Source: Daphnia pulex (lineage: Eukaryota > Arthropoda > Branchiopoda > Diplostraca > Daphniidae). From it: 64,000 bases of DNA. The stretch is taken from assembly GCF_021134715.1 (NCBI RefSeq), contig NC_060023.1, forward strand, positions 5,580,001 to 5,644,000, read 5' to 3'. This document shows, in pieces, positions 16,655 through 43,767 of this stretch. Position 1 is the stretch's first letter, and every line of letters starts with the position of its first letter. The notes under the pieces were generated by a model. The model was given only the letters and a program-made list of their open reading frames with translations. It was not told where the DNA came from and searched no databases. A program made the position numbers and the translations under genes.

Positions 16655-18989
16655 TTATTTCGGAGAGCAGCGGGTAAGTCCGTCCGATAATCGTTTCCAA
16701 AGATCAAACATTTCGTGAGTTTTGACCATGTGAACACTGGCGAGTTTGGCGACGGCACAAGTATCCAGCTTGAGTCGGCGGTTAAAAAACTGCGGGTAAT
16801 TGATGTGCTGGATCTTAAGCGGGCTGGCCACCATCCCCGTGACGAAAACGTCCTCCAACTTGAAGAAAGTTTCGTTCAGCGAAGCTTGGTAGAGTGGCTC
16901 GACAATGTCGTTGGTCAGAATGTAAGCCGGGCCCGTGTTGAAGTCGGGGTACATGGCCGCCTTGAACTGAGTCGGCGAAATGTAATACTTGGAAGTGACG
17001 TTGCGGATGGGCTTCCATTTTTTGGCCACCTTGCCCATGATTGTTCGTCGTCGGCTGGCAGCTCCGTCCAGGATGGACAGGAGCACAGGCATGTGAATGT
17101 ACATGTCATCGTCCGTCTTGAGTAAGAACCGGGCCCGGCTGCAATGTTCCCAACTCCATTCCAGCATGGAAATCGTCTTGAGCGTCAAATTGTTGTACGT
17201 ATCGATGAAATGACCCTGGGGGAAAAAAAAACAACAACAAAACAAACAATGAAAAATTGTTGACTATTATTCCTGTTTTGTGTGTTGAAAAGACCAAGGA
17301 TATTAGGATACAGTGGAAGCTTTTATTTAGATTGTAGAGAATCGTGTCCGCTGGCAAGGACGCCAGAGAGTCATCGGCATTCTTTCATTCATGGCAGCGT
17401 ATTTAGAACACGCTGTAGTTTTTTAGCGGGTCTGATTCGGTTACAGCAAAAAGTTTCTTTCGCTTTAATGGATCAAGTCGGAGTCTGATAGATCCCGTGA
17501 CATTAAGGACGCCCATTGTTCGAATGTCCAGGAATTCTGATTACCGTCGACGCCAGACTATAATCCAATCCGGGCAACGATTGCGATAACATCCTTCTGG
17601 ACGAAAGGAGAGTTGACACATTGGCGATTCCATTTCTATTCTGTGAAATGTCTTTCACCACGTCGAATGCCAAATGTGCGTTCGGTTTTTGGCACTTAAT
17701 TGCCTCACGCAGCGTGAAATTTCCACACTAGTCAAATTGATATGATAGTGTTTTCTGAGCAGTTGCGCAAGTTGCTTACCTGGATGATGTCACCGTAGAT
17801 GAAATTCTCTTGCTCAATCAGCGAATTCTCCGAGTGGTTCTTGGAAGTGCCTACCATGAAAGCCATGCCCACGTCACGACGGAAGGCGACGTGTCCCCAG
17901 GTAGAGCGGACGGCCTCACGCTGGGCGGCATGGCCGGGAGCGGTTGTAACCAAGATCATCAGTTTCATGCCTTCGCCCTGCTCTGGGCAGACGTCCTTGG
18001 GAGGGAGATAATGGCCGGCTTGATACAAGCTGCGAGTCAGCACCGGAAGGTTTTCTTCTTCGCTGCCAACCTTGGGCTGGGGCTGCGGATGCTCCTGTGT
18101 CACAGAGTTCATTCGCACCGCTCCTTTCACGGCGCCGACGCTTTGAATCTTGGCCGTCCGCGCATTGGAATGCACCGACACGCTGCTGGCCACCTTCTTC
18201 GTCTCCAAATGGAGCAGCGTGCGAGACATGTTGTCAGCGTGAGCGTTGGAAGCCTCAGAGTGCACTGCTGGCGAGGCGTTGTCGCTGACGGCAAACGACG
18301 GAGAGATGAGCGATTTCTGGTGCTGCTCGTCAATCTTTAGCGATTCTTGTTGTTGGGCGTGCTCTTGCTGTTGGGGGAAACTTTCGGGAATGGGCGAGGG
18401 CGGTTGCTGAGGTTCCGTCTTGATCACAGGTGGTTGAAAGGCAGGAGATTCCTGATCGGGCATCATCTCTTCCGGTAATGCCTCGTCGGGCGAAATGATT
18501 TCAGCGGCAGCCGCCGCCGCCGCCGCAATGGCTTCGTCGTTGATTGGCCTTTCCATTTTATCTGATGATTTCGCAGGAGATTTCGCTGTATGGTCGGCGT
18601 GAATTTTGTTGTCCAAAATCACTGTAACACTCTCGTCAGACGCGGTTCGGTGCTGACTGCAGTTTTGGCAAGCTGGCGTGAACAATTGTTGCACTACATT
18701 TGGAGCTGAGTGCCCTAAAACATTGAGATCAAGATTTATACATATAACTTTTGGATAGTAAGGAAACATTGATTCGAAAAAGAGAACATGGGTTCTTTTC
18801 TATTTTATGTAATCGATGAAAAATGATATTTCTAGTTATTATACCGTCATTATTGAATTTGGAAGTTGTTTCCATTCGATGAATGAAAGCAATGGTACCA
18901 AAGATGGCGACAGCTGATAAAAGTATCAACAGACCCCGGGTCACTCGGACAATCCGGCCTGCAGGGCGGATGAATCGGCAGAGAAACAT
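16655..18989 (-). CDS. GT31 beta-1,3-galactosyltransferase-like type II membrane enzyme
   Basis: Exons 18845-18989, 17780-18714 and 16655-17215 join in phase to 546 residues. The start at 18987-18989 gives a short basic cytosolic end, then one membrane anchor (GLLILLSAVAIFGTIAFI, residues ~19-36): type II Golgi topology. A long Gln/Pro/Ala/Ser-rich stem follows, to about residue 250. The C-terminal half is a GT31 (Galactosyl_T) domain: 'QREAVRSTWG', 'GDIIQGHFIDTYNNLTLKT', the metal/UDP-binding DDD at residues 395-397 ('KTDDDMYIH'), 'GPAYILTNDIV' and 'KLEDVFVTGMVA'. Members move galactose or N-acetylhexosamine from UDP-sugars to glycoproteins or glycolipids; the exact acceptor cannot be told. 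The long stem and 'TGPAY' rather than 'SGTGY' resemble insect members such as fly CG8668. 5' UTR exons may lie upstream. Confidence 0.92.
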
Positions 18990-25099: not shown

Positions 25100-26794
25100 A
25101 TGGAGCAATCGAACGTGTCCCAGGAAGCCTTAGCTGCTGTTCAAGCAGTTCAACTAGAACTAACTGGAGAAAATGCAACAAGCCTGTCTTTGAGAAGACC
25201 CTTCGATCCTGTTGCTCATGATCTGGATGCATCATTCAGGTTGACCCGATATGCAGATCTCAAAGGATGAGGGTGTAAGTTACCCCAGGATGTTCTGGGG
25301 AAACTTCTTTTATCTGCAGGGCTTCAGGATGACGATGCTAACATCCAAGATCATGAGCAAAGTCAATATCTTCATTTTCCTTATACAAGAATCGGTATTT
25401 TTTTCTTATTTCTTGCGGCTCCCTGTCGACATTTGTCTTTTTCCTTGTTTATTATTTACATTTTATCAATTTTGTTTTCTCTGCTAATGAATCTTAAACT
25501 AAAGGTGTTGGAATGGATGCTTCAGTCACACCACTTCGCCATGGAGGCCTTTCACTTGTTCAAACTACAGATTTCTTCTACCCTTTGGTTGATGATCCTT
25601 ATATGCAAGGTAGGTTATGTAAATATGTAGGTAATATCAATAGCAAATGTGCTGATACATTTATTTGATTAATAGGGAAAATTGCTGCCGCAAACGTTTT
25701 GAGTGATTTGTATGCCATGGGTGTGACAGAGTGTGATAATATGTTAATGTTGGTTGGAGTTTCAACAAAGATGTCAGAAAAGGAAAGAGATATTGTAATG
25801 CCACTTATTATGCGTGGTTTTAAGGTAAATAAAATTTATTTTGTGACATTTCACTTTTACTTGAAGTTCACAATGTTTTCTTTTTTTTTGTTTTTTAGGA
25901 TTGTGCCTTGGAAGCTGGTACTAATGTTACAGGTGGTCAGACAGTAATGAATCCATGGTGCACTATTGGAGGTGTAGCATCCTCTGTTTGTCAAACATCA
26001 GAGCTGATAATGTAAGATTTATAAAAAAATTATTATGGCACTATTTAAAAACTATTATTGTTGTTTTTTTTTGCAATGTCTTAATTGTAGGCCAGACAAT
26101 GCAGTTGTAGGAGATGTTCTTGTTTTAACTAAGCCTTTGGGGACACAAGTAGCTGTCAATGCTCATCAATGGTTGGACCTACAAGATCGCTGGAATAGAA
26201 TCAAACTGGTTGTATCGGAGGATGACGTACGCAAAGCTTATCTTCGTTCAATTGATTCCATGGCCAGACTGAATAGGACAGGTACGCCTTATTTTAATTC
26301 TCAATGTAAATGTATGTACATTAAATTGTTAATTATAGCCGCCCGCTTGATGCACAAATACAACGCTCATGCTGCGACTGATGTCACTGGATTTGGATTG
26401 TTGGGTCACGCTCAGAACCTTGCCGCACATCAAAAGAACGAAGTTTCTTTTGTTATACATAATTTACCCGTGATAGCAAAAATGGCTGCAGTTGCCAAGG
26501 CTTGTGGAAACATGTTCCAGCTTCTTCAAGGTCTATCTGCCGAAACTTCAGGTGAATTTTTTTATTTTTCATTGCTCGTAAGCAGGTTTAAAATAAATTG
26601 TTTTAATAGGTGGTATGCTTATCTGTCTTCCACGCGAGCAAGCTGCAGCATATTGCAAAGACATCGAAAAGACTGAAGGATATCAAGCCTGGATTATTGG
26701 AATCGTGGAAAAGGGAAATCGAACTGCCCGAATCATTGATAAGCCCCGAGTAATCGAAGTCCCAGCTAAAGAAAAAGAAGGCGAACTTTGGTAG
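25100..26794 (+). CDS. Sephs2: selenophosphate synthetase with in-frame TGA at the active-site selenocysteine position
   Basis: Seven exons (25100-25394, 25505-25609, 25676-25824, 25899-26011, 26091-26281, 26339-26551, 26610-26794) join in phase to 416 residues if TGA 25268-25270 is read through. It matches animal SPS: '[15 protein letters not shown]', '[19 protein letters not shown]', '[11 protein letters not shown]', '[12 protein letters not shown]', '[20 protein letters not shown]', '[17 protein letters not shown]'. The enzyme makes monoselenophosphate from selenide and ATP, the selenium donor for selenocysteine. The TGA is codon 57, in KG-(TGA)-GCK, exactly where SPS2 has selenocysteine, human SPS1 has threonine and bacterial SelD often has cysteine. 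The reading frame stays open and conserved after it, so it is not a stop. A candidate SECIS lies 110 bases past the stop. A Sec-less readthrough SPS1, as in Hymenoptera, is the alternative. Confidence 0.92.
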
Positions 26795-34810: not shown

Positions 34811-37800
34811 ATGAATGAAGACACCGGAAGTAGCTCAAATGCCATCTCCACCCCTTCAACGACGAATAATACATTAACTACCAAAGAAGAGGTTGCCAGT
34901 GAAATAAAAGAATGGATGGAGATCGATCAAGATGGCACTAATAAAACTTATGAAAATGCCATCAAACACATCGAGTTCAAACTGGGACGCCCACTTTCCT
35001 GTTTGGAAAAAACTTGGTTTGAGATGCCATATGTCCAAACGGTATTGCAAATGTGGCTGGAAAAAAGTTTAAAAAAGGCTTTTGAATACCTGGACAATTG
35101 CAATAACGATATCAGCAAGGATATGTCTACTGACTTGAAACTATTGGATTCCATAAATTGTTTTGAGGACATTCGTTCTAAGGTAAAAGACGTGACATTG
35201 CCACTGCGAAACTGGTGCGACGGGGAGTGTCGATATCTTAAACTTGTTTTCGGACAGGAAGATCTGTTTACAAACACGCCACGTTTCACCGTCTCTGTCA
35301 ACTGTTACTTGACTCAATTTAAAACATCGTGCATTGAAAAGATGTTCTCCCGATGTCTGAGCGACATCGTCAAGGATGAAACCAACGGCCAGAAACACGA
35401 AAAATTCATTATTGACCTGAATGATTTCTTGGCTTTTGTTAATGAAGACAAAAATGTATTTGAAAAAATGCTGTTGCAGCTAGGTTTTCCCCAAAATAAC
35501 GAAGAATGCAATGGCAATACTGGCGAGGAATTAGTTAAAGAACTGGTGGAAATGTTTGTCAGTTGTTCTAAGAACGATTTCCTGGCTAGCGTCAGAAAGG
35601 AAGAGATTTTGCAAGCCATTCTGGAGAACGACTTGATGGTGGTTGAAAATACAACTGACACTGAATGGCCAGAGTCGTTTCACAGACTAGTCGAGAAAAT
35701 GTCACAAAGCATTCTCCAGACTGACGGCAGCCAGACAACGCCAAGTCTAACACTTGAATGGTTTCAACGTTATCAAAAAGCCTCGTCACTAATAATGAAA
35801 GACGTCGAGTGGACCCCCAAATTGCGAATTCTGACAAAAGAAATGTACAAGAAATTCTTGTTACCCGAAACTGAAATCAATTACAAGAAAGAAGACGGAA
35901 AAAAAATAATCTTCTTTAAGGGAATCGCCTTATTCGTCAGCAAAATGCTTCAGCTAATGAAACAATTGAAAGACGAACATCCGGATGTCGAAGAAATCAA
36001 AATCGTTGGATTGAAATCCGTCCACATCGATTGTGACTTGGATAATGAAATCTGGCACGGAATAAACATTGGCATCGTCACCGACAAGCTCATCGTCGAT
36101 GACACCACTGACAATAATGCACAGACTTGGACCGGATTTTGTTGGAACGTATCCGGAAAAAATGCTGAAGATCAACCGATGGGTGAGACAATTTTTTTTC
36201 TATTTTCTTTAATTCCTGTCTAAAATGTTAACATGAATTTGTATCATTAATGTAGGAAAACCTTGTCAAGCGGGTGAGAGCGGCGGCAACGTGCACGTCG
36301 TTTGCAACGAAATAGTAAACGGCCAGAAATGGACGATCGTATCGGACGGAGGCGACGGAAGTGATGCGGCTTACAAATGGACCGAAGAAAAATTTAAAAA
36401 TTCTTTTCCGTCCATATCGTCGGGTGGCAAAAAGGCAATGGAAACCGTATTGACAACATTACAAGAAATTTTACCAAGGGAAAATCGAACAAGAGACAAA
36501 GATGTTCTGCCAGGGCACAAGGGCAATTTTCTCATCAGCGGCACGGCGATCGACGGCAGTGAAATCACGGCAATATTTTATAAGGGGAAAAAAGAAGGAC
36601 AGACACTCTTTTTAATCAGAGGTACCAAACAATGACCAGTGTTCTTTCAATTCTTTATTTCTAAATGCGTTTTTTTTCTTTGCATTATCAATTGATCGTG
36701 TCAACAACGTTGATATTTTGACGACTATTTTTACTTTTCTCTTTGAATGATAACATGATAACTCTCTTCTCAAGGAAAGCATATATTTTCTTTGATTTGC
36801 AGGTGGCCAAGCAGGGCAAGCAGGGCAAGGTGGATACGGTGGCAAGATCGAAGTGAACATTGGCGGGCAATCGTCTATGACATCCGGGATCCCTTTGACG
36901 GGCAAAGAAGGGAAACAATTGACGGCTGACCGATTGGGAGTCTACGAGGCTTCGTGTCCCAACGGAAATATTGGAAAATTAACAGGTGACGTTGCTTTTA
37001 CCCAAAAAGTCGCTAAAGGCGGCGGATATTTCTACGGGTTTGAAAGAGACGAGAAGATCACAATTGAACTGGGAGTGAAGGAGAAGACATCAGCAGAAAA
37101 AGCAGGTGCAAATTTATACGTGAAATATCAAGAAGAAAAGGAGAAAATGTATGCCATATTATCCGTCTCTAAATACTCTGCCAGCGATTTGGTAGTAATG
37201 CTAGTGGATTCAGTCCACCAGAAGAAGGCAGTCATTCGTCAAAGTCTCGTCCGTCACCTCGACCAAATAGACAAACGAAAGCAATTGACAGAGTCCATCC
37301 AAAAGATGTTATCCAATCATGCAAAACATCATTCCATGAGCAAAGAAGAAATTATAAAAGCAACGGAAAACAAGATCCATCAACACCATCAGCTCATGGC
37401 TCAGCGTCAACAACAGCAGCAATTCGAGAAAATTGAACAATACTTTAGACCAGCGTTTGATCCATCACGATCGTTTCCGAAGCCCAAAATAATCGGTCGT
37501 CGCCCCGTTTGGAATGGAAATGTCGTCAGTTCCAACTGTCTCGATGTATTGCCGACAGAGGATGGAACTGACAGTCTTCTTCACTGCCTTTTCGGCCAAT
37601 TGAATTCGGAGGGTAAATACGTGTGTAAAGACACTAACAAGTTCCGCAAACTGATTGCAAAACACATCCGTGAAGAAGACTCCAGCGCTAAAACCTACAA
37701 CGGCGTAGTCATGTTCATTTTGCGAGTAGATAATGACAACATTTTCCCGATGGCGTGTGCTAAAAGAGACGAATTGATAAAAAAAATCATAGCAAATTAT

Positions 37801-40800
37801 CAGCCGTTGAAGGGAAAAGAGACACAAGTTTTGTACTGGTTGAACTTATTCAACGGCCGTAACGACGACGATGAATTTCTCGACTCAAAATACGACGATG
37901 ATGAGTGGAAGAAGGCATGGGGCAGCATTGGGCGTGACCCCACAGAAGTGAAAAAACAACTGCTAGAAGAAATATCAAAGTGGAAAAAGGACAAAGATTT
38001 GAAAGACGATTACACCAGATACATCGAGTCACCGACGGGTACACTGGGATTCGCCGAACTAGAAATGTTGGCAGAGATGTTTAAAATTGCAATTCAGGTT
38101 TATAAGTACCATGGCTTATCATTTTTCGAAGAGAAAGAAACAATGAATCGATCAAATGATATCATTAAATATTACATATTATACGAAGGCAACAGTCAAT
38201 GGAAAAGACTTTCATCTAAAGACAATAATCGTGAAAGGTTTCGACAGTTCTCTTTTAAAGCTGAAGAACAAAGTTACGATTCAGAGAGTTTTACAGAATT
38301 AATGTCTCGAATTAGAAATACAGACATTGATCAAAAGAATATCACTTCTATTGAGAAGTTAAATCCCCAAAACAAGACACCAGCCAAACTATCTCAACTT
38401 CTCTTGGACCAATTAAACAAGCTCAACCGTCAAGTGGAGGCAAATAAACTTGCATCCGCAATCATTTCACTAGCAAAGTGGATCGAGTACTACAACTCCC
38501 GAAATATAAGTCCTTTATTTTACCTGCACATCGTGGAAAAGAATGAACCAAACGACTGGGAATACGAATTTCTTCTACTGGAAATGGAAGAACGGTTGGA
38601 GAAACTATGGAAGCATTCTACAGAGAGAAAAAAATGGAGAGAAGAAGTGCGTAAACATTTGGATTTTATGGATCACGACCGAGACGTACTGTCACTGTTC
38701 ACTGAATTTGCATTGAGAAAAGAGGAAAGCGACATTTTGTTTTTCTTAGATTCCGATAAACTCTCACGGACGCTAAAAGTTTTTGAAGAAGTAAAATGCG
38801 ATTTGACCAGAGAAGGCTTTGGTTCATTATCTGTAATTAACTTATTCTACAAACAGAGAAGCGCATTTTTGAATAAAGAAGTAGAAAATTGGTCGTTTGA
38901 CAAGCAAAAAGTAGAAGCTTGGTTGGTTGACAAGCAAAAAGTAGAAGATTGGTTAGTTAACGAGCGAAAATACGTTTCATTTTTTTTACTGGATCTGGAA
39001 TACAAGAACGAAACAAAATTGCTAGCTGAATTGATGAGTGACAAGAAATTGACGATGGGCGATACAGTTCTGAACACTCCAGAAGAAAATTCTAAATCGA
39101 ACCCGAAAAGTTTGAACGCAATTATTGCTGATATGGAGGAAAATGATCCGGAAAACAAGACGACTAAAAAAATTGAAAAAAAGATAAATGGTTCGGAATC
39201 CATGAAATCCGAATTCTTGGGAAAAATCGAAATGGTAAAGACAAACAAAGTGACAAAAAATTTTTTTTTGTTAAGAAAAGAAAAAAGTGAAATGAAAAAG
39301 ACAAACGACAAACAACGAAGCGAATTTGTGTTTGAATTCATTTCTCAAAAGGCTAAGGAAAGTTTATGCTGGATGGAAGCTTTTCTTTGCGTTTTTGAAT
39401 ACTCCGTCGATATCACTATGGGAATCCAGCTGAGTGAGACACAAAAATTCGCCATCATGGCTCTACTATCTAACGGATGTTTCGATTTTAAAAAAACATT
39501 AGCGCAAGTATCGACCGGTGAAGGTAAATCAATTATCGTGGCCGGGGTTGCCATTGGATTTGCACTTTCAGATCGTTTTCATCCAAACAACCAGAAAAAG
39601 AATCATAAGGTAGACGTCATCACCAGTAACGACGTCCTTGCTCTCCGTGATTCCAATCTGCCAGTTGCCGAAGGAGGACTAAAGGAACTCTACGAGTTTT
39701 TCAACGTCACCGTGGCAAACAACTGCAGTAAAAATGTAGACGAGCGCAAAAAGGCCTATAACATGGACGTCGTTTATGGGCAACTTGTAAATTTTCAGCG
39801 AGATTATTTGCTGGACACATTTTACAATCGCGAAATACAAGGTGGCCGAAAGATGGTGTATGGCATCATCGACGAAGTGGATAGCATGTTGCTGGATGGT
39901 GGTAACAACATGCTCTACCTGTCGCACGACATCCCCGGTATGGAGATGCTCGAATCTCTTTACGTTTTCATTTGGGGACAAATACGCAACACTTCAGCGG
40001 GAATAATCAAATCCGAAATCCTGTATGACCTCTACGGCCAAATAACAGAAACAGATTTGGAAAATATTCACGGCCCATTGGGACAAAATGAATCGGAAAG
40101 AAATGCGTTATGGGAACATCTGATTAAGAAAAAAGTTATCGACCGTCAAGGCCGTCTGCTGATAAACGAAGTCAGCGAAATTACAGAAAAAAAGATCAAC
40201 TACACAGTTAATGCCAAACTTAATCCCAAAATCGTTTTCTATTTCCGTCAAATAGTAGAGCGCGAGCGTCACATTCGCATACCGGATCATTTGTTGGATT
40301 TCGTCGACAGACACCTGGACACTTGGCTGGATAACGCAAGGCGGGCACTGGAGCTCAAACAAGACGTGGACTACGTCATTGACCATGACCGATCAGACTC
40401 AAGTCCCGATCTAAATCCGCAAGTGATCATCATCGATCCGGATACAGGGACGGATCAATCCAATTCGCAATGGGGCGGAGCCCTGCACCAATTCCTTCAG
40501 CTAAAGGAAGGATGCAAATTGACGTTGCAGAGTCTCAAAGCAGTGTTCATCTCCAACGCAAAGTACATTAACAAATATAATTATTTTGCAGGAGTGTCGG
40601 GAACCCTGGGCTCCCAGCCAGAAAAGGAATTTTTGAAAAAGAATTATAAATGCGATTTAATAACTGTCCCGCCTGCTTTCCCCAAACGTTTCCGCTTTAA
40701 ACCGACTAGATTACTGAAGACAAATGAAAAATGGAAGGAGGTTATTACTGAAGAAACCCGTTGGGCGATCATTGACCAAAATCGTTCCATCGTCATTTTT

Positions 40801-43767
40801 TGTCGATCCATTAAAGAGGTCAACATAGTTCATAAACAATTGATATCTGCAATCAAAGAACTCAGCAGAGACAATAATAAGCGCATCCATCGCTACACTC
40901 GTGATTACGAGAAATTTGCTTTTGAAACTTCTGAACTGGATGTCGGACACGTAATCGTCGCCACCAACTTGGCCGGCCGAGGAACGGACATCAAAATCAG
41001 CAAAAATCTAGAAGCCAACGGAGGTCTGCACATTTGTTTGACTAATTTTGTGGATAACGAAAGAGTCGAGGAACAAGCGATGGGTCGAGCGGCAAGAAAA
41101 GGACAACCAGGAAGTGGAATCCTCATCCTGTGCGAGGAACAAATTGACCAAACGGAGGAGTCGGGCACAAGTGAAGAATGGGGGGCTGAGAAAATTTTTG
41201 TCATGAAAGAGATTAGAGAATGGAAGGAGATTCAACGAATTTCACGTTTGGAAAAAGATTTAAACCACCTTAAAATGCTTGAAGATTTATTTGAAAATTA
41301 CACCAATAATTTCTCCGAAAGGAAAGTCAAAGAAAAATTCAAGGAAATTAAAAAAGAGAAGAAACCATGCGAAAATCAAATCGTCCAACTAGCGGACGAT
41401 GACAAGTTGCTTAAGGTCTTCCATGACAGCATTCTGGACAAATGGGCTCTGTGGGTAGACGAAACAGATTACGATTTAAAATGTTTTGATTTGAAACCAA
41501 ACAAAAATAATTTTAATTGGGATATTTTTAAAATTGATGATATTCCCAATTGGATGACGCCGGCCCGTAGAGTCAACATTGCCAAACACTTGACAATGAA
41601 AAATTTCAAAAATTCCGATAAAGAAGCCACAAACATTTTGGATAATCTACAAAATTCAACTGAGAACTTTTTCTACCCAGCCGCATTTTACTATCGTGCT
41701 TTTATTCTACTCAAGAAAATGAAAAACAAAAATGAAGAAAGCAAAACAAATAAATTTATCTGCATGTTACGACATACGGAGTCAATTTTGAATGAACACA
41801 TCAAAATGCAAATGTCGTCTTTCAGTCTAATTCATCAATACGAGATGAAACCTAACCAAACCCTTTCATTTTGTCCCGTCAATGGCTACAAGGAACAAAA
41901 GGAAAACAACATTGAAATTCTTCAATATTTTTTAAGCTCTATTCAGTGGTTGCTAGGCAACTACTGCTCTATTTCGAATTTCAAGGAAGTTGCACGTGAA
42001 ATCCCGAGAGATCCCGGATTTTTTGAAAACTTTATCAACAACAAGAAAAAAAACGAAGAACTGAAAAGACGTAAAATTCACCTGGAAAAAGTGGACGAAT
42101 ATTTTCGTGATCTGATCAAATCCAAGTGCATAATTACCTGTAAACTCAACGATTCCGATACCATTCCTAACGTTGTTCTCGACAAGTCCAAAATCTCAAG
42201 TAACGACATTATTCGAAGCAAAATAATAAAGGAAATAGCCGACGACTACGGCGCCAACGCTTCGTTGGAAGATAAACTCAAAAAAATTTTTGATAAATCT
42301 CGGGATGAAAAGTACATTGAAAAGAAACTGGAACAAATGAATTTGATTCCGTGCACCAGGAAGACGTTCTGGAAGAAATTGGTCGATGCCAAGGCCTTAA
42401 ATTCTCTAAAGGAGTGCGTTAACATGAAATGTGTCATCATTTTAGAAGAAAAGCTGGAATTAATACAGCCCAAACTTGATAAGCGAAATGCAATAACATT
42501 AGATTTTGGCGGAAATTCGTTTGATCACAACACTAATTGTCTCAACATCCTTTACAACTTGATGTATGAAAGTCGCCAAGAATTGGAAAAACAAAAAAAG
42601 CTCATTTTTTGTAAAGAGTACGTTCGACACATTCTATCGTCTGATGGGTATAGCAAAAATAAGAAACTTTTCGAATCAAATAAAATTGCCCAACTTGATC
42701 TCGACAAACTCAAAGACGTGAACCTGGAATCGTTAAGTCAACTGGGAATTGATGACCTGGGTAAAATTGAAATCGATAAATACGAACACGAAGGGATTTG
42801 GAAAGAACTGATCGCTCAAAAAATAATAAAGGGCCAAGGCTATCTTGAACCAGACTTCAAATTCAATAAAGATTTCAAGTATCCTGATTGCCCAGCGTAT
42901 GCAGACAGTGTCATGCGTTTGGTGGCAAAGAAATTCCCCGCCGAAATAGTCAGACAACAGTGGTTAATGTCGAAGGATACACCCCAATGTCTCAAAGCCA
43001 TCATCTTGTTACCTTGCAAACCGTATCGAGATATGCTGGGAGATTTGATGGCTGCCCACGTCATATCTGGCGCTCGAGTGTCGGACATATCTGTGGACGA
43101 CTTAAAGGAAAAAGTTGACGAAATCACAAAAAACGATAAAGAACGTGAATATATTATGGAATTCCTGACAAGGAGTCGACCTGTTTACGCTGAGAAAACC
43201 ATCACCCCTGATTTCTTCCTCGACTTTATCGATCGTGACATAAGAAAAGAGTCGAATAAAGTGATTCGATTTGTTTCCAGTGAACTGTATGTTTTTAGTC
43301 TTGGAGGATTTGATCGCATTATTGACATTACGAATCGGGAATGGACATTTAAAAGAATTTTAAAGGCGTCATTATTCGTATCACTCCTCAGCGTTGGTGC
43401 CCTCGCATCTATTGGCTTAGGAGCTGTTGCCTCAATACCAGGAATTAAAGATGTACTCGGTTTCACATTATCATCTGAAATTTGCCAAAACCTGCTTTTC
43501 ATGGGAGTTTTATCCGACATCTTGTACGTGGTAGAAACCATCTTGACCCGGAAAGACTTCACGTGGGCTGACTACAGGCGCCAAAGAATTCGGAGCGCAA
43601 TAGGAAAAATGGAGCCGATCGACGCTATCAAAGCCATTTACAAATTATATAAAAGCTCCAATCAAAGTTTCGGAGATTCAAGTAACGTTCAACACGGATG
43701 GACGAAAAACGCAGACCAAAATCAACAATTACAGAATGCGCGGGTGTTATTTGAGGAAATTATTTGA
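34811..43767 (+). CDS. giant protein with glycine-rich modules, OTU-like domain and SecA-type ATPase motor
   Basis: Exons 34811-36182, 36256-36621 and 36803-43767 join in phase to 2900 residues. Residues 1-455 are mostly helical and unrecognised. Around 458 and 580 two glycine-rich modules occur ('KPCQAGESGGNVHVVCNE', 'QAGQAGQGGYGGKIEV'). About 825-1050 resembles an OTU protease fold. About 1440-2020 is a SecA ATPase: TGEGKS (Walker A, 1484-1489), 'VITSNDVLALRD', 'VVYGQLVNFQRDYL', DEVDSM (Walker B, from 1603), 'GVSGTLGS', 'IVATNLAGRGTDI' (~1971) and 'QAMGRAARKGQPGSG' (~2005). The C-terminal ~880 residues are unrecognised, with a hydrophobic stretch near 2760-2800. SecA normally drives protein export in bacteria and plastids; the function here is unknown. 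Two phase-matched introns show it is an animal gene. Ancient transfer from bacteria is an inference. Large uncharacterised proteins of this type may occur in other invertebrates. Confidence 0.93.

Follow-up and report, generated by a model that had tools for sequence, protein, structure and literature searches.

A multi-copy SecA-motor gene family in Daphnia pulex and its kinship with giant modular toxins of intracellular bacteria

Large proteins carrying SecA domains have been described from insects and from a "large Daphnia" clade, apart from bacterial SecA (Woolfit 2013, PMC3639933; here and below, published work is described from the portions of text available). Here, we analyse a gene for a SecA-type motor protein in Daphnia pulex, located in a window of 64,000 nucleotides that covers bases 5580001-5644000 of a 12.3-Mb contig (NC_060023.1) in a genome of 133,188,837 bases and 13 contigs. 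According to the gene model, the window gene (34811-43767, forward strand) consists of three exons and two GT-AG introns, both in phase 1, and encodes 2,900 amino acids. An earlier note, made from the sequence alone, had stated that animals have no known SecA pathway, which is contradicted by the insect and Daphnia proteins published in 2013 (PMC3639933). SecA-domain genes of animals, like the related ones of Wolbachia, are thus already in the literature (PMC3639933, PMC5062602), and what appears to be new is the kinship of the animal genes with giant toxins of symbionts: a literature search, outside which most subscription papers and all preprints lay, found no paper that connects SecA genes of animals with polymorphic toxins that have a SecA motor and immunity genes. 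Our preferred reading, with a probability of roughly 60%, is that the gene is a member of a family with several copies in the animal, that this family arose from SecA-motor polymorphic toxins of intracellular bacteria, and that the window copy is used by the animal.

Several described systems resemble this family in part. Toxin tips, immunity genes and a membrane domain go unmentioned in the available text of Woolfit 2013, and that account is set apart by description; it also held most introns to be spurious, whereas the two introns of the window gene are backed by paralogues (PMC3639933). Polymorphic toxin systems comprise long proteins with variable C-terminal toxins of AHH, WHH or colicin type and SUKH- or Imm-type neighbours, as do the bacterial relatives reported below, but the core shared here is a SecA motor with a membrane domain, and the window copy lacks a toxin tip (Zhang 2012, PMC3482391). 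Effectors of Amoebophilus with SecA-like domains, and toxin domains that moved to Daphnia, are both mentioned in the same paper. Giant actinobacterial toxins likewise contain a SecA-like ATPase within a modular toxin, predicted to aid secretion, yet carry GT4 domains; they are set apart by description, not by sequence (PMC8195603). The secondary SecA_DEAD proteins of Kamneva 2015 form a second lineage beside housekeeping SecA in which the wing-scaffold is lost; they are encoded next to type I secretion genes, in Planctomycetes among others, and are likened to the giants by description, and three proteins were omitted from a figure of that paper for their size (PMC4452313). Two further papers concern ordinary SecA (PMC9111745, PMC8163844), and one lists a Legionella "SecA DEAD-like" protein (PMC4256840).

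The window protein contains a motor of the SecA superfamily, as the Pfam profiles SecA_DEAD (4.7e-28) and P-loop_SecA (1.4e-9) both match above their cut-offs and Walker A, Walker B, motif V and motif VI are present; solved SecA chains also match the motor (best 1.3e-30). The earlier note had read a SecA-type motor with all its motifs in a spliced animal gene of 2,900 codons, and the SecA_DEAD score, the intact motifs and the three exons bear this out. The preprotein cross-linking domain (PPXD, PF01043) scores 15.8 bits, under its cut-off of 23.5. The likeness to housekeeping SecA extends over NBD1, NBD2 and the ATPase motifs. Structure prediction, which the note had proposed, gave a model of the motor that aligns over 480 residues (SecA 60-589), with a low predicted local distance difference test score (pLDDT) over the aligned part; the superposition on solved SecA ends near residue 589-640. 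The differences from housekeeping SecA are a separate clade, huge extra regions and an altered motif VI (R-[VI]-E-x-Q-x-x-G-R in the window family versus R-[IV]-D-[NR]-Q-L-x-G-R). For the helical wing-scaffold with its two-helix finger, which couples SecA to SecY, the window protein gave no Pfam match at E <= 1, and HHalign weakly pairs one scaffold-like helix. Taken together, the pattern RxExQ..GR and GTLG distinguish the Daphnia motors, and most of the giants, from each of the 15 housekeeping rows. Moreover, all matching NCBIfam SecA models (best 1.6e-48) stay below their own cut-offs, and the SecA equivalog TIGR00963 reaches 131.7 bits against a cut-off of 800, which sets the protein outside housekeeping SecA.

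Phylogeny places the motor among giant proteins of about 1,100-5,200 amino acids, sampled from Rickettsiales, Legionellales, Chlamydiia and one Neisseriaceae metagenome-assembled genome (MAG). In a careful tree of 49 rows, housekeeping SecA forms one clade (100/100) and all other rows another (100/100), within which 24 giants and nine Daphnia rows, including the window motor, form a clade of their own (100/100). A first tree, with supports from the Shimodaira-Hasegawa-like approximate likelihood ratio test (SH-aLRT) only, agrees in placing the window motor outside housekeeping SecA and inside the giant clade (SH-aLRT 100 for both). Left out of the first tree were 16 locus ids (duplicates, fragments and others such as L087, L109 and L113), the Megaera large-gene fragment and rows under 300 model positions; the careful tree dropped 19 further ids, namely housekeeping duplicates, short-clade rows and the giants L042, L046, L107, L122, L123 and L131. 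The bacterial, probably symbiont-linked origin suggested in the earlier note is consistent with this placement among giants of intracellular bacteria; what it missed is that the relatives, judged by their sequences, are giant modular toxins and not export SecA.

Plastid-type or ordinary export SecA, or contamination, might be suggested by the strong SecA profile matches, yet such an origin is very improbable. All SecA equivalog models remain far under their cut-offs, and housekeeping SecA was rejected by these scores and by both trees, which hold no plastid SecA rows. Plastid SecA belongs with housekeeping SecA. Contamination or an assembly chimera was rejected, in line with the earlier note, by the 12.3-Mb contig, by introns shared with paralogues and by copies on nine contigs. 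Since 12 places matching SecA_DEAD are spread over nine contigs, the window gene is nuclear.

The bacterial relatives combine a constant core with exchangeable ends. Among 33 bacterial SecA-like proteins scanned, of which some are cut by contig ends, some were scanned over the C-terminal part only and two pairs are near-identical, a domain of an enzyme or toxin was recognised in ten at E <= 0.01, and six of these pass a Pfam cut-off (L039, L044, L124, L127, L128 and L129). The domains are of RickCE type or Ulp1 type (deubiquitinase/protease; L039, L034, L124, L125), WHH (L128), AHH (L129), Colicin_D (L127), Cytotoxic (L046), Scabin/Pertussis_S1-like (ADP-ribosyltransferase-like; L044) and Lipase_3 (L135). 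They lie at or near the extreme C-terminus in L127, L128, L129, L046 and L124; L039, from Megaira of Mesostigma, instead has its RickCE-type deubiquitinase domain (residues 1057-1131) within the SecA region. The core runs from motor through a helical region to a membrane-type domain, and the bacterial C-terminus varies between nucleases, deubiquitinases, ADP-ribosyltransferase-like and lipase-like domains. The hallmark of polymorphic toxins, a toxin domain that varies at the C-terminus of an otherwise constant core, is found in these ten of the 33 bacterial relatives and not in the window protein. The downstream side was read for 14 giants: two with nuclease tips have an immunity-type gene right behind them, namely SUKH (1.9e-19), starting 47 nt past the WHH protein L128, and Imm11, a match exactly at the cut-off, starting 70 nt past the AHH protein L129, and DUF2247, DUF7674 and DUF6980 lie downstream of L130, L132 and L046, respectively. 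The hydrophobic region of L129 also matches the translocon family SseC (3.6e-5, under the cut-off). As a separate observation, in L042 from a Rickettsia sp. MAG a Gp5_trimer_C spike-protein domain (residues 95-167; 31.4 bits, cut-off 30.9) precedes the motor.

The giants occur in scattered genomes of intracellular bacteria. A tblastn search of plasmids gave 116 records, with standouts from Megaera (2e-68), Bandiella (2e-58) and Legionella geestiana (5e-33) and the rest in the range of ordinary SecA; these top plasmid relatives belong to Rickettsiales symbionts of Euplotes and to Legionella geestiana, with genes of 15,678, 4,770, 8,901 and 8,844 nt. The phage collection yielded 23 records (best 7e-32), none resembling the giants, and no relatives were found in the genome-contig collection with query A1 or in the viral-contig collection with queries A1 and A4. 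A pattern scan of genomes gave 11 loci, from Orientia chuto, two Rickettsia, Megaira, Bandiella, two other Rickettsiales-type MAGs, Protochlamydia, Legionellaceae, Neisseriaceae and an uncultured gammaproteobacterium; all seven of the seven pattern-scan genomes examined also hold a match of ordinary SecA size with a far lower score. The Daphnia motor profile, applied in a survey with a threshold of E <= 1e-30, matched 18/174 genomes in the order of Orientia, 16/140 in the order of the Legionellaceae MAG and 16/116 in the class of Protochlamydia, or 15, 7 and 8, respectively, under a stricter count (E <= 1e-40 and a frame of at least 1,100 amino acids). For the phylum Pseudomonadota, where three candidates per genome were scored, at least 4 of 398 sampled genomes matched and at least 2 under the stricter count, one of them the survey centre itself. 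The survey matches are mixed, as a separate "short" clade of the first tree takes in the Chlamydiia proteins and several from Legionellales, about 1,000-1,200 amino acids long. Finally, a smaller SecA-like gene (~1,475-1,590 amino acids) lies beside a giant at L034 (Megaera plasmid) and L125 (G175:C2), an arrangement resembling Wolbachia wBol1_1091/1092, where genes of 4,488 nt and 11,829 nt stand side by side (PMC3639933).

The membrane-type domain extends the kinship beyond the motor. A hidden Markov model (HMM) built from 22 bacterial (symbiont) copies of the domain matched six of 1,482 Daphnia frames, all in SecA loci (C4 1e-25, C11 1.9e-21, C12, C10b, C2 and C8), and none of 258 non-SecA bacterial frames. 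An alignment of the C-terminal region from six Daphnia copies matched the symbiont domain over window residues 2735-2845 (HHalign probability 97.4, E 1.2e-11), and an HMM of this alignment found L137, from the order Legionellales, in two blocks (2.8e-24) and L044 (2.6e-10). The C-terminal region of the window protein is, on these profile matches, homologous to the domain of the symbiont giants, and the protein shares the layout of their clade, with its motor inside the clade and a membrane-type domain downstream in conserved order. Because of this homology, the flanks of the motor are not simply "eukaryote-style", as the earlier note had described both; for the N-terminal region, direct blastp comparisons found no bacterial relative, no profile search with that region having been made. 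The N-terminal region encoded by exon 1 has no significant Pfam match, exon 2 has none either, and the N-terminal region recurs at five other SecA loci of the genome (those named are C3, two at C7 and C10) and in two fragments.

The direction of transfer can be considered from the same trees. Both nest the nine Daphnia rows among 24-30 bacterial giants, with another bacterial clade as sister group, and descent of the window gene from the symbiont-toxin clade seems quite likely from this placement. The Daphnia rows fall in two places, with a distant subfamily joined to L125 and L140 (99/94), and both Daphnia subfamilies group with L125, L140 and L137 (99/94). Because of this split and because an approximately unbiased (AU) test, run after the tree had been seen, rejected a single Daphnia clade (p = 0.034), two captures by the animal are likely on phylogenetic grounds. 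Alternatively, the family could be an ancient eukaryotic SecA lineage that symbionts acquired from their hosts, with toxin tips added later. Woolfit 2013 put Wolbachia and Amoebophilus genes inside a eukaryotic clade (PMC3639933), and the bacterial giants are confined to scattered symbiont genomes; still, the nesting of the Daphnia rows, with one eukaryote sampled, and the immunity genes and colicin-type tips, which are bacterial traits, make this alternative unlikely.

Several observations weigh against descent from symbiont toxins followed by use in the animal. Woolfit 2013 argued for transfer from eukaryotes to Wolbachia (PMC3639933), and Daphnia is the sole eukaryote in our trees, so that without insect, protist and Wolbachia rows the animal clade is thinly sampled. 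The branch joining the window subfamily to the distant group is weak (84/20). No toxin domain was recognised in 23 of the 33 bacterial proteins, four of the ten domain calls lie below the Pfam cut-off, and profile scans of the window protein recognised no payload or toxin domain. In addition, the symbiont membrane-domain HMM gave no direct match to the window protein or four close copies at E <= 1, the link between them being profile to profile and lacking a negative control, and the model of the shared C-terminal region is poor (mean pLDDT 38). Searches of the literature found no biochemistry, localisation or infection data on the family.

Within the Daphnia genome, the window gene is one of 12 SecA places, a fact that the earlier note had missed. 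In alignment A3, motor identity is 54-74% among six close copies (window, C3, C7a, C7b, C10a and C11); a further close copy, C5, is broken, and the remaining five (C2, C4, C8, C10b and C12) are distant. Conservation among copies is highest in the motor (55-73%), compared with 28-42% in the OTU-like region and 34-41% in the C-terminal region, and of four copies tried, three have intron 2, and two have intron 1, at the same position and in the same phase. Between window and C3, the ratio of nonsynonymous to synonymous rates (dN/dS) is 0.23 (NG86) or 0.28 (YN00) in the motor and 0.33 in exon 3, the values outside the motor being rough because dS exceeds 1 there. These ratios indicate purifying selection on the motor, which is likely to be still active. 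The window gene could instead be a functionless relic of captured symbiont DNA, as C5 has three TGA codons within its SecA_DEAD match, one in-frame stop splits C7a, fragments lie at C9, C10 and C12, and the window copy lacks the toxin end. A relic is improbable, however, considering 2,900 open codons, conserved introns, intact ATPase motifs, the dN/dS values and a congener that expresses and regulates a SecA_DEAD gene (PMC5037449). Parts of the window protein, N- or C-terminal or middle, also occur with no SecA match at C10:736324-737894 and C11:6507816-6508802. Next to the distant copy C4 lies a frame with Endonuclea_NS_2 (2.6e-11). A Pkinase match (6.9e-16) lies in the frame that follows C10a, and inspection by eye placed the start of the kinase where the SecA frame ends; both frames may be fused to their SecA frames. 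Flanking repeats are 70-88% alike in some copy pairs (C7b/C8, C11/C7b and C11/C3) and are possibly mobile elements; the family as mobile-element cargo was rejected, as no flank common to the whole family was seen, a search for terminal repeats not having been run.

In bacteria, the membrane domain would insert into a target membrane; driven by ATP, the SecA-like clamp would unfold or move a polypeptide, probably the toxin end, without SecYEG and thereby aid delivery of that end. Independence from SecYEG is suggested because the wing-scaffold is not recognised and the superposition on SecA ends near 589-640. The window copy would retain a working motor and membrane part with no recognisable payload and serve the animal; most likely it would act in the cytosol or on membranes, as a factor directed against intracellular bacteria or parasites. 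Defence, which the earlier note had named among possible roles, is kept as a tentative possibility. Its main rival is a role in reproduction, such as resting eggs, sex or control of symbiont transmission, given the strong up-regulation of a SecA_DEAD transcript in sexual D. similoides females. This transcript ranks in the top 30 up-regulated (q = 0; PMC5037449), and relatives occur in the eukaryotic association module of phage WO of Wolbachia, a reproductive parasite (PMC5062602). The transcript is not assigned to any particular copy or to the window gene, however, and since the same list holds defensin, cuticle proteins and peroxidases, a general state change could also be at work, leaving a reproductive role rather unlikely. 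It could further be speculated, with more doubt, that the protein is a domesticated, self-contained and SecYEG-independent protein mover, whose motor drives its own chain through a pore of its own membrane domain, acting as an innate weapon or switch against intracellular bacteria, either without a toxin or with new tips, e.g., a kinase.

Apart from the motor and the membrane-type domain, exon 3 holds an OTU-like region (Table 1). PF02338 matches three of six copies there (best 0.0038; window 0.06, 14.3 bits against a cut-off of 23.3), and in a six-row alignment other residues seem to stand where the catalytic Cys and His are usual. An OTU cysteine protease was rejected as weakly supported, since PF02338 stays below its cut-off and a profile search found no OTU structure for the region. 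Inspection by eye showed a recurring W..L[IV]....I-like pattern at residues 1681, 2434 and 2578 of exon 3, followed by Gly in two of three. Elsewhere in the window, frames at 16658-18799 (reverse strand) and 26011-26673 (forward strand) match Galactosyl_T (1.4e-34 and 1.1e-6) and AIRS_C (2.9e-10); these galactosyltransferase-like and AIR-synthase-related neighbours are ordinary host genes.

Table 1 Features of the window gene, in window positions.
Feature	Positions	Strand	Remarks
Exon 1	34811..36182	+	residues 1-457; family-specific N-terminal region
Intron 1	36183..36255	+	73 nt, GT-AG, phase 1; identical place and phase in copy C7a
Exon 2	36256..36621	+	gene model
Intron 2	36622..36802	+	181 nt, GT-AG, phase 1; identical place and phase in copies C3 and C7a
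Exon 3 including stop codon	36803..43767	+	contains OTU-like region, SecA motor and membrane-type domain
OTU-like region	37522..38304	+	residues 820-1080; weak PF02338 match
SecA-type motor	39382..41184	+	residues 1440-2040
Walker A, TGEGKS	39514..39531	+	residue 1484
Walker B, DEVD	39871..39882	+	residue 1603
Motif V, NLAGRGTDI	40966..40992	+	residue 1968
Motif VI, QAMGRAARKGQPG	41074..41112	+	residue 2004; fits family pattern R-[VI]-E-x-Q-x-x-G-R
Membrane-type domain	43267..43599	+	residues 2735-2845; hydrophobic segments 2770-2788 and 2810-2828 (hydropathy)

Because the nearest relatives of the window gene outside the animal are giant modular toxins of intracellular bacteria, Daphnia apparently maintains a family of symbiont weapons that were captured and partly disarmed, with a SecA-motor toxin probably captured more than once. 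An animal gene family known since 2013 and left unexplained is thereby tied to the modular toxins of intracellular bacteria and given a list of parts: an ATP motor, a membrane domain and an exchangeable end. If the motor moves a polypeptide without SecYEG, it would represent a new route for toxins across membranes, and if the animal uses the gene, symbiont weapons would have turned into genes of the host, a course already suggested for other toxin domains found in arthropods.

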